Source: Pseudoxanthomonas sp. F37
GTDB lineage: Bacteria; Pseudomonadota; Gammaproteobacteria; Xanthomonadales; Xanthomonadaceae
NCBI RefSeq assembly: GCF_022965755.1
Contig: NZ_CP095187.1
Coordinates: 1,860,001-1,924,000 of the forward strand
DNA length: 64,000 nt
Direction of reading: 5' to 3'
Shown: piece by piece, positions 14,934 to 54,169 of the stretch
Layout of the letters: every line of letters starts with the position of its first letter
How positions within the stretch are numbered: the first letter of the stretch is position 1
The notes under the pieces: generated by a model
What the model was told of the DNA's origin: nothing
The model's input: only the letters and a program-made list of their open reading frames with translations
Databases searched by the model: none
Made by a program: the position numbers and the translations under genes

Positions 14934-15320
14934 TCCTGGCGTCGCGACGCCCGCATCGGACAGCGAGTGGCGCCGCCGATACCGGCGACGCAGGCGTCGT
15001 TCCCTGCGTGCGCTGCGCATGCGCACCAGCGGCGCAGCGCGCGCACCACGATGGCGATTTAACATTCTTAACATCGCGTTGACCTTTGCAACGACGATGC
15101 GGCCTACAATGCTGCATCGCATCAGTCGATGCCTGCGTCCACATCCGGGGATGGACGCGCATCTGTAGCGCGCTTGCGCGCAGCGTGTTCCGCACGCGGC
15201 AATCCTCTTCCTGCGCCTGCCTTGCAGCGCCCTCCGATGCGATGACTCCCCGCCTGCGTCCGTGGACGCGTTCGCGTCGTGCCTTGTGCGCGGCATCTCC
15301 CCATCCTGGAGTGCACCTGC
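14934..15320. other. 387-bp gene-free region upstream of ggpPS
   Basis: No credible protein is present. An A/T-rich patch (TTTAACATTCTTAACATCG) at about 15059-15077 is followed by TTGACC and, 20 bp on, TACAAT at about 15104; the spacing is longer than optimal for a sigma-70 promoter, so this is only a candidate. Transcription from there would give a leader of about 200 nt with a short hairpin (CGCGCTTGCGCG) near 15170. Salt regulation is known for ggp genes elsewhere, and this is where it would act. Confidence 0.5.
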
Positions 15321-17618
15321 ATGAGCTTGTTGAAACAACCCGCCCAACCCCTGCTTCTTGCCACCGACCTGGACGGCACCTTCCTGGCCGGCGACCCGGA
15401 TGCGCGCAAGCGCCTGTACCACCTGGTCGATGCGCATCCGGACGTGAAGCTGGCGTGGGTGACCGGGCGCGGGCGCGAAGCGATCCTGCCGCTGCTGGCC
15501 GACCCCGGCCTGCCCACGCCCGACTACGTGATCTGCGATGTGGGCGCCACCGTGCTGCGCACCGCCGACATGCAGCCCATCCAACCCCTGCAGTCGCGGA
15601 TCGAGGCGCGCTGGCCGGGCGAGCACGTGGTGGCCGAAGCGATGCGCCGCTTCCCGATGCTGGTGCGCCAGGAAGTGCCGCAGGAACGCCGCTGCTCGTA
15701 CTACTGCCATCCCGAACAGCTGTCGACCATCCAGGCCGAGGTGGAGGCCGTGGCCGCGTCGCTGGGCTGCGAGGTGCTGTATTCGGCCGACCGCTACCTG
15801 GACATCCTGCCGCGCGACACCCAGAAGGGCAGCACGCTGGCGGCGCTGGTGGATGCGCTGGACCTGGCGCGCGAACGCGTGCTGGTGGCCGGCGACACGC
15901 TCAACGACCTGTCGATGTACGGCGAAGGATTCCCCGGCGTGTGCGTGGGCGCTTCCGAGCCGGCGCTGGTCGCCGCCACCGCGGACATGGACCACGTGCT
16001 GCATGCGGACGCGCCGGGCTGCGGCGGCATCCTGCAGGCGATGGCGCATTTCGCGCTGATCGAAGCCGACGCGTATGCGCCGCCCGCGCAGCCGGCGGGC
16101 AAGGCGGAGCTGGTGATGGTCTACCACCGCCTGCCGTACGAGGAACACATCGTCGACGGCCAGCGCGTGCGCAGGCCGCACAGCTCGCCCAACGGCATCA
16201 TCCCCAGCCTGCTCAGCTTCTTCGCCGATGGCCGGCCCGGCTCATGGGTGGCATGGACGGTGGAAGACCCCAAGGCCCCGCCGGTGGAGCCGCGCGCAGC
16301 GGTGGATGCCGAGCAGTACCCGGGCCTGACCGCGACCCACGTGCCGCTGACCCGGCACGAGGTGGACGTGTTCTACAAGCGCTTCTCCAAGGAAGCGTTC
16401 TGGCCGGTGATCAACAGCTTCTGGGAGCGCGCGCGCTTCAGCGAGGACGACTGGGCGCTGTTCAAGCGCGTCAACCGCCGCTTCGCCGAAGCCGCCGCGG
16501 CGGAAGCCGCGCCGGGCGCCACGGTATGGCTGCACGACTACAACCTGTGGATGGTGCCCTCGGTGCTGCGCGAACTGCGGCCGGACGTGAAGATCGCCTT
16601 CTTCCACCACACGCAGTTTCCCTCGGCGGACATCTTCGCCATCCTGCCGTGGCGCCGCGAGATCCTGGGCAGCCTGCTGGCCTGCGACTACGTGGGCTTC
16701 CACATCCCGCGCCACGCGGAGAACTTCACCGACGCGGTGCGCAGCACGTTCCCGGTGGAAGTGACCCGGCGCGCCTCGTGCGCGCCGCGCTTTCTGACCT
16801 TCGGCTGCGCCGTGGGCGTGGAGGACATGGCCACCGCACTGCGCATCGACGGCCGCACCGTGCGCATCGGCGCGCATCCCATCGGCACCGACGTGGGCCG
16901 CATCCGTACCTGCCTGGAGAGCGAGGAGGTGGCCACGGACATCGCCCGCATCCGCGGCGAGATCGGTCGGCGCAAGCTGGTGCTGTCGATCGAGCGGCTG
17001 GACTACACCAAGGGCATCCTGCAGAAGCTGCATGCCTTCGAGCGCCTGCTGGATGGCTCGCCCGAACTGCAGGGCCGGGTGACGCTGGTGATGGTATGCG
17101 TGCCGGCGGCCAAGGAGATGACCGTCTACCGCCCGTTGCAGCAGCAGATCGAACAGGCAGTGGGCCGCATCAACGGCCGCCTGTCGCGGCTGGACTGGAC
17201 GCCGGTGCGCTTCTTCTCGCGCGTGCTGCCGTTCGCCAGCGTGGTGGCGCACTACGCCGCGGCCGATGTCATGTGGATCACGCCGCTGCGCGACGGTCTG
17301 AACCTGGTGGCGAAGGAGTTCGTCGCGGTGCAGGGCCTCAACGAGGGCGACGGCGTGCTGGTGCTGTCGGAGTTCGCCGGTGCCGCCGCGGAACTGAAGG
17401 GCGCGGTGCTGACCAATCCGCACGACCCGGCCGACCTGGTGCGCAGCCTCAACCAGGCGCTGGCGATGACGCCGCGGGAGCGTGAGGACCGCCAGCGCAG
17501 GCTGTACGACATCGTGCGCCATCACGATCTTTCGCGATGGGGGCGCGAATTCCTGGCCGCGGCACAGGCGGATTCCGATGAGGTAAATGCGGAAACGCAG
17601 ACGGCGGTCGCGGCTTAA
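15321..17618 (+). CDS. ggpPS: fused glucosylglycerol-phosphate phosphatase/synthase (GgpPS type)
   Basis: A 765-residue fusion. Residues 1-250 form a HAD phosphatase (nucleophile motif DLDGT at 16-20; [10 protein letters not shown] at the metal site). Residues 255-745 are a GT20 glycosyltransferase ([29 protein letters not shown]). The phosphatase-first order and sequence flavour match GgpPS of Stenotrophomonas, which makes the compatible solute glucosylglycerol from ADP-glucose and glycerol 3-phosphate; separate OtsA/OtsB trehalose enzymes are the alternative. Substrate cannot be decided from motifs alone. ATG at 15321 is used; the frame opens at 15279. It implies an osmotic-stress role. Confidence 0.85.
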
Positions 17619-21269: not shown

Positions 21270-21295
21270 CGGTCTGCGCGCGGGTCGGTGCACGT

Positions 21296-21805
21296 TCCGC
21301 ATCCCGTCGTTCCAGCGAACGCTGGAATCCATGTTCTGTAAGGGCCGGGACGGTCACCGCAAGAGCAAGATGGGTCCCAGCGTTCGCTGGGACGACGGCG
21401 GGGGGGCGATGCGCCTTCCATGCCGTCATTCCAGCGAACGCTGGAATCCATTTTGTGTGCGAGCCGGGACGGTCACCGCAAGAGCGAAGATGGGTCCCAG
21501 CGTTCGCTGGGACGACGGCAGGGATCGATACGCGTTCCACATCCCGTTATTCCAGCGGACGCTGGAATCCATGTTCTGTGCGAGCCGGGACGGTTACCGC
21601 AAGAGCAAGATGGGTCCCAGCTTTCGCTGGGACGACGGCGGGGGGCGGTGCGCGTTCCACATCCCGTCATTCCAGCGAACGCTGGAATCCATGTCCTGTG
21701 AGAGCCGGGACGGTCGCCGCAAGAGCAAGATGGGTCCCAGCTTTCGCTGGGACGACGGCGACGATTGCGCCTTCCATGCCGTCGTTCCAGCGGACGCTGG
21801 AATCC
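21296..21805. repeat. tandem array of REP-type inverted pairs, about 120-bp period
   Basis: Five units start their first palindrome at 21312, 21431, 21552, 21672 and 21787 (spacing 119, 121, 120 and 115). Each full unit carries ATTCCAGCGAACGCTGGAAT-like and GTCCCAGCGTTCGCTGGGAC-like palindromes; the core of the second is the reverse complement of the first, so a unit is an inverted pair that can form two small hairpins or one large one. The fifth unit lacks the second palindrome. Units 2-4 differ at scattered sites (AA/GA and GTT/TTT centres). This looks like a BIME (REP dimer) array and lies between the regulator gene and rne. Confidence 0.9.
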
Positions 21806-21910
21806 ATGTCCCGTGCGAGCCGCGGTGGTCACCGCAGGCGCAAGCGGCCCAGTGTTCGCCGCGACCACGGTCCGATCAAGTGTCTGAGTCGGCAGCTGCC
21901 CCCTGAAACG

Positions 21911-51356: not shown

Positions 51357-53270
51357 ATGGAATCATGGCGGGATCGATTGAGCGGTGTGATGCCACGCGT
51401 CCTCGTCGCGGCCCATGATCTGGGCATGGTGTGGATCTGCTGGCAGATCCTGCACCGGTTGCGTTACGCCATGCTGGCCCATTCGCCGGACTTCCCCCTG
51501 TGGTCCAACGAAATCGCCATCGTTCTGGTGGCGCAGGGCACGGTGTTCTGGTGGATGGGGCTGTACCGGGGGCTGTGGCGCTTTGCGAGCCTGCCGGATC
51601 TGTGGAACATCGTGAAGGCATGTGCGCTGGGCTTCCTGGGCATACTGCTGGGTCTGTTCTTCTACAATCGCTTCGGTTCCACGCCGCGCGTGGTGCTCGG
51701 GTTCTATCCGTTCGCGCTCGTCGGGCTGCTTGGCTTGCCTCGCCTGGTCTATCGCGCCTGGAAGGACAGTCAGGCTCAACGTGTCAACGAGACCGCCTCG
51801 CGCGTGCTGATTCTGGGCGCCGGGCGTGCCGGCGAAGCGCTGGTGCGCGAGCTGCGCCGCACGGGCGTCTACTACCCGATCGCATTCCTCGATGACGCCA
51901 CCCGGCTGCATGGTTCGAAGCTGCAGGGCGTGCCCGTTCTCGGCGGGCTGGAGAACGCCGCTGCCGTCGCGCGCGAAACCGCGGCGCGCATGCTCGTCAT
52001 CGCCATGCCTTCGCTGGACGCGCCGGCCATGCAGCGCGTGGTGGCGATCTGCGAGAGCACCGGATTGCCGTTCCGCATGGTGCCCAAACTGATCAACGTG
52101 CTGGAAGGGCAGTCCATGCCCGGCGATCTCAAGGAGGTCGCGATCGAAGACCTGCTGGGTCGCAAATCTGTGACGCCGGACTGGAAGCTCATACGCGGCT
52201 GGCTGGGCGGGCGCACCGTCATGGTGACGGGCGCGGGCGGATCGATCGGATCCGAGCTCTGCCGGCAGTGCGCACGGCATGGTGCCCAGCGGATAGCGCT
52301 GGTCGAGATCGACGAACTGGCGCTGATCACCATCCAGGGCGACCTGCGGCGCGCCTTCCCCGACCTCGAGGTGCTGCCGGTGCTGGGCAATTGCGGCGAT
52401 CCCGCCGTCATCGCCCATGCCTTGGCGATCGCCGAGCCCGATGCGGTATTCCATGCCGCCGCCTACAAGCAGGTGCCGTTGCTGGAAAGCCATCTGCGCG
52501 AGGCCGTGGGCAACAACGTGCTGGCGACCGAGGCGGTGGCACGCGCCTGCCGCGACGCCGGCGTGGCGACCTTCGTGCTGATCTCGACGGACAAGGCGGT
52601 GGATCCGGTCAACGTGCTGGGGGCCACCAAGCGCCTGGCCGAGATGGCGTGCCAGTCGCTCGACGACGCCCGCTCCGGCACCCGCTACGTCACCGTGCGG
52701 TTCGGCAACGTCCTGGACTCGGCGGGAAGCGTGGTGCCGCTGTTCCGCGAACAGATCCGCAAGGGCGGACCGGTCACCGTGACCGATCCCGACGTCACCC
52801 GGTATTTCATGACCATCCCGGAGGCGTGCCAGCTGATCCTGCAGGCCGCCTCCGGCGCGGCGCACGCCTCCATCTATACGCTGGACATGGGCGATCCGGT
52901 GCCGATCCGGCTGCTGGCCGAGCAGATGATCCGCCTGGCCGGCAAGCAACCGGGACGGGACATCGCCATCGTCTACACAGGCCTGCGGCCCGGCGAAAAG
53001 CTGCATGAGACGCTTTTCCACGCCGACGAGCGCTATCAGCCGACGTCGCACTCCAAGATCATGAAGGCGATCGCGCGCGAGGTTTCGAGCGAGTTCATCG
53101 ATCTGGCCCTGCAGCGCCTGCGCGCCGCGCACGCCCGCTACGACACCACCGAGCTGGCCGAGGTGTTGAGGATCGCCGTGCCGGAATTCACGCCGATGTC
53201 AAACGATCAGAACGAAGCATCGGCTAACATCGTGGTCTTCCCTGGTCGAGACGCCCGCAGAACCCGATGA
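51357..53270 (+). CDS. membrane-bound nucleoside-diphosphate sugar 4,6-dehydratase, WbpM/CapD type
   Basis: A 637-residue protein with four N-terminal membrane helices, a Rossmann sensor-like domain ([15 protein letters not shown] at about 150) and the catalytic SDR domain ([14 protein letters not shown] at about 290). The catalytic block is [18 protein letters not shown], without the usual YxxxK tyrosine, as in WbpM-type enzymes that turn UDP-GlcNAc into a 4-keto-6-deoxy sugar. ATG at 51357 is preferred on ribosome spacing; ATG at 51348 adds three residues. It follows the WecA-type gene and overlaps galU by 4 bp. Confidence 0.92.
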
Positions 53271-54169
53271 CTTCCGCCCGCATCCGCAAGGCCGTGTTCC
53301 CCGTGGCGGGACTCGGCACCCGCTTCCTGCCCGCAACCAAGACCGTCCCCAAGGAAATGCTGCCGATCATCGACCGGCCGCTGATCCAGTACGCCGTCGA
53401 CGAAGCGGTCGAGGCAGGCTGCGACACGCTGATCTTCGTCACCAACCGTTACAAGCATGCGGTGGCGGACTACTTCGACAAGGCCTACGAGCTGGAGCAG
53501 AAGCTCGAGCGGGCCGGCAAGACCGAGCAGCTGGACCTGGTGCGCAACGTGCTTCCGCCACACGTGCGGGCCGTGTTCGTGACCCAGGCCGAAGCGCTGG
53601 GGCTGGGCCATGCCGTCCTTTGCGCCAAACCCATCGTCGGCGATGAGCCGTTCGCCGTGCTGCTGCCCGACGACCTGATCTGGAACCGGGGACCCGGTGC
53701 GCTGAAGCAGATGGCGGATGCCGCTGAACGTTCCGGCGCGAGCATGATCGCCGTGCAGGACGTATCGCCGGAACAGACCGGCAGCTACGGCATCGTGGCG
53801 ACAGAGTCCTTCAACGGGCGCGAAGGCAGGATCGGTGCCATCGTCGAAAAGCCGAAGCCCGAGGATGCGCCCAGCACCCTCGCCGTGGTCGGGCGCTACG
53901 TCCTGGACGGACGCATTTTCGAGTTGCTGGAGAACACCACGCCCGGCGCGGGCGGCGAAATCCAGTTGACCGACGGCATCGCCCAACTGCTGCGCGAAAA
54001 GCCCGTGCACGCCTACCGCTTCCAGGGCACGCGCTTCGATTGCGGCACCCATATCGGCCTGATCGAAGCCACCATCCGTTACGCGCTGGACCACGAGAAG
54101 CTCAGCGATGCGGCGCGCGACACCATGCAGGACGCGCTGAGCGAACTGGGCGTACGGGACCTGCAGTAG
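53267..54169 (+). CDS. galU: UTP-glucose-1-phosphate uridylyltransferase
   Basis: GalU (300 residues) forms UDP-glucose for LPS, exopolysaccharide and osmolyte synthesis. The nucleotide loop [19 protein letters not shown] and the later [12 protein letters not shown] are conserved. Its ATG overlaps the dehydratase stop (ATGA), so the envelope-sugar genes form one operon from lapA or earlier to here. Confidence 0.97.

Follow-up and report, generated by a model that had tools for sequence, protein, structure and literature searches.

A probable fused glucosylglycerol-phosphate phosphatase/synthase (GgpPS) in mexicana-group Pseudoxanthomonas and the supply of its glucosyl donor

Results

The ggpPS gene and its upstream region

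The window analysed here, a 64,000-nucleotide stretch of the genome of Pseudoxanthomonas sp. F37, carries the following features around a gene for a two-domain protein:

15059..15110, + strand: putative promoter-like block consisting of a TTAACATTCTTAACATC direct repeat, TTGACC and TACAAT (20-nt spacer), kept in the window and in 8/8 mexicana-group loci
15308..15311, + strand: GGAG, probable ribosome-binding site 9 nt 5' of the ATG, read directly and invariant in 9/9
15321..17618, + strand: ggpPS, predicted bifunctional glucosylglycerol-phosphate phosphatase/synthase of 765 aa; intact ORF; TIGR02398 688.7 bits (cut-off 569); 66-67% identical, across 747-750 columns, to the GgpPS in four records titled S. 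rhizophila
15348..16058, + strand: N-terminal HAD phosphatase domain (S6PP type), aa 10-246; Pfam PF05116, E 4.9e-59; catalytic residues D16, D18, T48, K169, D192, N195 and D196 invariant in 81/81 GgpPS
16110..17564, + strand: C-terminal GT20 glucosyltransferase domain, aa 264-748; Pfam PF00982 (Glyco_transf_20), E 1.1e-129; donor residues common to OtsA, acceptor Arg replaced by Ala597

The frame from 15321 to 17618 on the forward strand encodes 765 residues followed by a stop codon, with zero internal stops. The arrangement given in the preliminary description, a HAD domain followed by a GT20 domain in one 765-residue protein, is confirmed by this intact frame and the two Pfam matches. A GTG at 15279 in the same open frame would offer an alternative, earlier start and a protein of 779 aa; the stretch 15279-15321 contains one- and two-base gaps in the alignment of nine sequences, and GGAGTGCA, which precedes the ATG, is common to 9/9 of them. 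The genome consists of one contig of 3,971,652 bases, in which the ggpPS query finds one other GT20 frame. The closest named relative of the window GgpPS is that of P. mexicana DSM 17121 (95% protein identity). Direct comparison with GgpPS used records titled S. rhizophila (other than DSM 14405) and P. mendocina. A pattern search in viral contigs gave 14 matching stretches, none of which encodes a relative.

The promoter-like block lies about 260-210 nt before the ggpPS ATG. Its 17-mer occurs as a single copy in the 3.97-Mb genome (<=2 mismatches), and a sigma-70 scan did not report the block. A structured leader RNA was considered and rejected: the leader of the window folds with a z of -0.45, 66/200 shuffles being as good, a double change is seen in 2/69 predicted pairs, and three Rfam matches are far below the gathering scores.

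Genomic neighbourhood and the YcaD-type transporter

On the flanks of ggpPS in the window lie a LysR gene, a tRNA-Ser and two ORFs that match no Pfam family; genes for a PEP-mutase-family protein and an M28 peptidase follow downstream on the opposite strand. An MFS gene (ycaD) is located directly upstream of ggpPS in at least 46/80 named loci, as judged by ORF clustering; an adjacent MFS gene is present in 0/8 mexicana-group loci and is absent from the window locus. A YcaD homologue with 55-59% identity to YcaD of an S. rhizophila record is encoded in 8/8 mexicana-group genomes searched. Within this group ycaD and ggpPS are 169-297 kb apart in four genomes and on different contigs in four, the distance in the window genome being 177 kb. 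The YcaD-type MFS gene at G000:C1:2055037-2056254 (L161:5038-6285) adjoins a formate-dehydrogenase-like gene and a HemN-like (coproporphyrinogen III oxidase) gene, both named by reading the sequence. A promoter shared by ggpPS and the non-adjacent ycaD was rejected, the 17-mer of the promoter-like block having one genomic copy and being absent from L161-L170 and L043-L114 (<=2 mismatches).

Within the genus, YcaD is found in 9/10 ggpPS carriers versus 0/8 non-carriers (Fisher p 0.0004), and the carrier G218 shows no YcaD homologue anywhere in the genome search. In other genera it is found in 30/30 carriers versus 7/30 chosen non-carriers, a weak 78-bit match not being counted and the thirty positives including one split into two pieces on separate contigs, one with 44% identity on another contig and one with 47% downstream. 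Overall this amounts to 39/40 carriers versus 7/38 non-carriers with p 7e-14, a value that is only a guide because species are not independent, the 38 non-carriers being the eight congeners plus 30 hand-chosen genomes and no random draw. Six of the seven positive non-carriers belong to genus g17, in which 6/6 chosen ggpPS-lacking genomes carry ycaD; YcaD may therefore have another substrate or be left from a lost pathway. In S. rhizophila under salt, ggpS is up 8.3-fold, ycaD is up 7.7-fold and glucosylglycerol is made (passages of PMC3653106), and the characterisation of the YcaD-type protein was called pending in a section of a 2019 review (PMC6753628).

A record titled Bacillus subtilis SK7B5 (L079) holds a Stenotrophomonas-type ggpPS locus with Stenotrophomonas gene order and is probably a mixed or mislabelled assembly. 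Elsewhere in the window, five copies of an inverted-arm repeat (TTCCAGCGaACGCTGGAA) lie about 115-121 nt apart at 21291-21841, between a response-regulator gene and an RNase E-like gene, the latter named by reading.

Assignment of the two domains

The GT20 half reaches 688.7 bits and thereby exceeds the cut-off of 569 for the NCBIfam model of glucosylglycerol-phosphate synthase (TIGR02398), a test that is not independent because the NCBI model may itself derive from proteins like this one. It does not pass the OtsA equivalog model (430.5 bits; cut-off 564.85), and the HAD half stays below the cut-offs of the sucrose-phosphatase equivalog models TIGR01485 (92.7; cut-off 183.65) and TIGR02471 (82.1; cut-off 209.75). 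Among solved structures, sequence comparison ranks OtsA enzymes first for the GT20 half and the Synechocystis sucrose-phosphatase first for the HAD half.

A maximum-likelihood tree of GT20 domains included, on the GgpPS side, the window and 38 out of 80 named loci; its root is a matter of display, long branches occur in several OtsA, the composition of one OtsA row is unusual, and the order inside GgpPS is used at starred forks or with the support stated. In this tree, 39 GgpPS rows and 19 OtsA rows split at 100/100, and the GgpPS of the window groups with those of Stenotrophomonas rhizophila and Pseudomonas, apart from OtsA. The preliminary description had proposed a probable glucosylglycerol synthase, against which clustering with trehalose-phosphate synthases would have spoken; such clustering was looked for in the tree and not found, and the proposal is supported by the passed TIGR02398 model, the failed OtsA model and the position of the GT20 half among GgpPS proteins.

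The GT20 domain of the window pairs with that of P. mexicana (99/96), and the union of the six mexicana-group rows has a support of 90/100. Other members of the genus (kalamensis, wuyuanensis, GM95 and winnipegensis) share a cluster, supported at 100/99, with Stenotrophomonas and Xanthomonas; the mexicana group lies outside a starred fork (99/100) that unites 29 GgpPS rows. Judged from the tree, the genus Pseudoxanthomonas holds two ggpPS lineages, of which that of the mexicana group differs from the rest. Horizontal transfer may be one explanation for the two lineages, a reading limited by the arbitrary root of the tree.

Donor and acceptor positions

Residues were compared in an alignment of 81 GgpPS, 80 of them from named loci and one from the window, with 19 OtsA of sampled relatives. 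Among the GT20 donor residues, R657, D658, G659, N661, L662 and E666 show no variation in GgpPS and are the same in the 18 OtsA rows covering them; R559 and K564 agree in 12/12 rows of a smaller alignment. Position 597, on the other hand, is Ala in 81/81 GgpPS and Arg in 19/19 OtsA, position 408 is Asn in 81/81 GgpPS and His in the 19 sampled OtsA, and position 269 is His in 81/81 GgpPS and Asn in OtsA (His in 0/19). In the M. thermoresistibile OtsA structure, R324 and Q146 contact glucose 6-phosphate (passages of PMC6879718), and positions 597 and 408 correspond to these two residues in an alignment with a hand-derived one-residue offset. Since the donor residues are shared and the acceptor positions differ from OtsA, the donor side appears to be kept and the acceptor side changed in GgpPS. 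The GgpS of Dinoroseobacter shibae has Asn at 597, so that Ala597 is not universal, and the sampled OtsA have His at 408 and not the mycobacterial Gln, so that this position separates the groups and represents no plain loss of a known contact.

A HAD-GT20 fusion of Kitasatospora (L177:3890-6124) has Glu at position 597, that of the acceptor Arg, and Phe for the conserved Tyr, and scores 323.7 on the glucosylglycerol-phosphate synthase model. Similar places in Streptomyces and Embleya are among the matches listed.

Occurrence of GgpPS and of trehalose genes

Full-length GgpPS is encoded in 41/297 sampled family genomes and in 10/18 listed same-genus genomes, a distribution that the preliminary description had called narrow and that is better termed patchy. 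G059 is not counted as a carrier, its 851-aa frame matching in the GT20 part alone (48% identity). GgpPS is also found in Pseudomonas, Azoarcus, Thiobacillus and others. The window genome contains an OtsA homologue (P0002) of 531.5 bits, just below the cut-off of 564.85, which adjoins a trehalose-phosphatase gene (108.2 bits; cut-off 68.05). As the genome thus also has OtsA/OtsB, it may have osmolytes other than glucosylglycerol: of the earlier statement that the organism makes glucosylglycerol as its osmolyte, the probable glucosylglycerol function, as predicted from sequence, holds, and its reading as sole osmolyte is too strong. Among six compared mexicana-group genomes, five show no OtsA and the window genome has one; G191, with three matches, may have OtsA too.

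Candidate sources of the glucosyl donor

The window also encodes a candidate donor supplier:

53267..54169, + strand: galU, UTP-glucose-1-phosphate uridylyltransferase, with a putative role in the pathway; TIGR01099 352.8 bits (cut-off 326.8)

According to passages of PMC6004087, the GgpS of Synechocystis works with ADP-glucose but does not use UDP-glucose, and a need of cyanobacterial GgpS for ADP-glucose is described in parts of PMC6004087 and PMC8168540. In the window genome, the best match to GlgC (TIGR02091), the ADP-glucose pyrophosphorylase that classically supplies this donor, has 32 bits, against a cut-off of 424.9, and the best matches in this search are GalU and RmlA. GlgC over cut-off was found in 0/40 ggpPS carriers and 0/119 family genomes. 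The 40 carriers are those of the 41 full-length ones that remain without G007, which is 72% complete and has a 94-bit partial GlgC match (L179; model 157-331) near a contig end, either a rare family GlgC or contamination. A control search showed that GlgC can be found by this model. It covered 27 hand-chosen carriers not belonging to the family, with several metagenome bins of the 80-locus set left out; three were over cut-off, two reached 417 bits and three 105-112 bits across almost the whole model, and in 19 of the 27 (genome completeness not given), including all 14 Pseudomonas, nothing exceeded 45 bits. G245, with a YcaD 99% identical to the one in an S. rhizophila record, likewise gave no GlgC over cut-off. 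Of the 40 carriers, seven have GlgA over cut-off, the window genome not being among them, and sucrose synthase was over cut-off in 0/40 with a control that was also without a positive over cut-off. Since GlgC over cut-off is missing in the carriers, the donor would be UDP-glucose or ADP-glucose made by another route.

In mycobacterial OtsA, the small base-pocket residue V363 is connected with ADP preference (passages of PMC6879718). The equivalent position 636 is L, I or V in 77/81 GgpPS and Y or F in 15/18 OtsA rows with a letter there, an ADP-like look, and the equivalent of R361 is Arg, as in the ADP-preferring enzyme, in 58/81 GgpPS. Not ADP-like are V or I at position 592 in 81/81 GgpPS, as in the 19 OtsA, where the equivalent L319 of the ADP-preferring enzyme is Leu, and, in the window protein, Ser at position 640 (E367 equivalent), a position with Glu in 53/81 GgpPS.

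Discussion

The gene studied in this work is very probably the ggpPS of mexicana-group Pseudoxanthomonas, the product of which would form glucosylglycerol via a phosphate intermediate; this estimate does not extend to the donor step. The GT20 half would glucosylate glycerol 3-phosphate with a sugar nucleotide as donor, and the HAD half would dephosphorylate the resulting glucosylglycerol phosphate to glucosylglycerol, a compatible solute that serves against salt or drying. Substrates, product and salt induction are predicted from studied orthologues. The non-adjacent MFS protein described above, a YcaD homologue, is a candidate transport partner, and at the donor step, which is uncertain, the glucosyl donor may be UDP-glucose from GalU or else ADP-glucose from a non-GlgC source.

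The window GgpPS belongs to an already known kind of enzyme. The GgpPS of Stenotrophomonas rhizophila (Hagemann et al., 2008, as cited in passages of PMC10873239 and PMC3653106) has the same HAD-then-GT20 order, falls into the same clade against OtsA and is recognized by the same TIGR02398 model (L066). The two differ in that ycaD is directly upstream in four S. rhizophila loci and far from ggpPS in the window genome, and in that the window GgpPS lineage is separate from the one common to Stenotrophomonas and other Pseudoxanthomonas. Cyanobacterial GgpS and GgpP catalyze the same two-step reaction and are encoded by separate genes (passages of PMC10873239). This system of two genes and ADP-glucose contrasts with the fused protein of the window, whose genome has no GlgC over cut-off. 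Cyanobacterial GgpS are presumably members of TIGR02398. The cyanobacterial glucosylglycerol phosphatase belongs to another HAD family; no cyanobacterial-type phosphatase model was listed for the window HAD half in the Pfam and NCBIfam searches. With OtsA/OtsB, the window GgpPS has the GT20 family and the donor-binding residues in common, whereas acceptor residues, phosphatase family and domain fusion differ. In Dinoroseobacter shibae the same HAD type (38% identity) and a protein matching the glucosylglycerol-phosphate synthase model (657.8 bits) are present as in the window protein but unfused, and on the plasmid (L175:2805-6222) a glycerol-3-phosphate dehydrogenase gene is directly followed by the HAD gene and ggpS. 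As the split genes sit directly behind the dehydrogenase gene, they provide independent support for glycerol 3-phosphate as acceptor.

This gene context also bears on whether the enzyme could make something else. A GT20 enzyme with a different acceptor, yielding another glucoside phosphate, would agree with the acceptor positions unlike those of OtsA, and the actinobacterial fusion of the same layout, which reaches only 323.7 on TIGR02398, implies that the HAD-GT20 layout alone does not fix the product. The window protein, however, is well above the TIGR02398 cut-off and shares 66-67% identity with the GgpPS of S. rhizophila records, and together with the D. shibae context, which points to glycerol 3-phosphate, this makes another acceptor very unlikely. 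Another alternative is a trehalose-6-phosphate synthase/phosphatase with its domain order reversed. Membership in the GT20 family and the best solved matches to OtsA enzymes are in line with it, but the OtsA model is failed, the tree sets GgpPS apart from OtsA, the OtsA acceptor Arg is replaced in all 81 GgpPS, the HAD half matches the sucrose-phosphatase and not the trehalose-phosphatase family, and a separate OtsA-OtsB pair already exists in the genome; we consider trehalose-phosphate synthesis by the fusion very improbable.

With glucosylglycerol-phosphate synthase/phosphatase as the preferred reading, the donor has to be considered separately. UDP-glucose from GalU is the plainest donor, yet with a base pocket of mixed character the choice between UDP-glucose and ADP-glucose is about evenly balanced. 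That the same enzyme is fed by ADP-glucose in the cyanobacterial manner, from an unrecognised pyrophosphorylase or by another route, is a possibility that we rate somewhat below an even chance: the pocket residue at 636, the Arg at the R361 equivalent and the preference of Synechocystis GgpS for ADP-glucose are in its favour, but the carriers and family genomes searched are without GlgC over cut-off, the best matches of the window genome are GalU and RmlA, sucrose synthase (with the control mentioned) and, in the window genome, GlgA stay below cut-off, and the L319 and E367 equivalents of the window protein do not follow the ADP-preferring enzyme. In Lysobacteraceae and the 14 examined Pseudomonas carriers, glucosylglycerol is probably not made from GlgC-derived ADP-glucose; instead, UDP-glucose from GalU or the product of an undescribed ADP-glucose-forming enzyme would be used. 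Literature listings and some passages yielded no paper on the glucosyl donor of GlgC-lacking carriers, and glucosylglycerol is unmentioned in the parts consulted of a 2024 review on alpha-glucan enzymes.

The presumed glucosylglycerol transporter tracks ggpPS across the family sample even when the two lie at a distance from each other, and this pattern supports a role in common. The published picture, in which glucosylglycerol-phosphate synthase uses ADP-glucose, is at odds with the gene content of most carriers examined. Either answer to the donor question would mean that heterotrophs and cyanobacteria differ in the opening step of the pathway.
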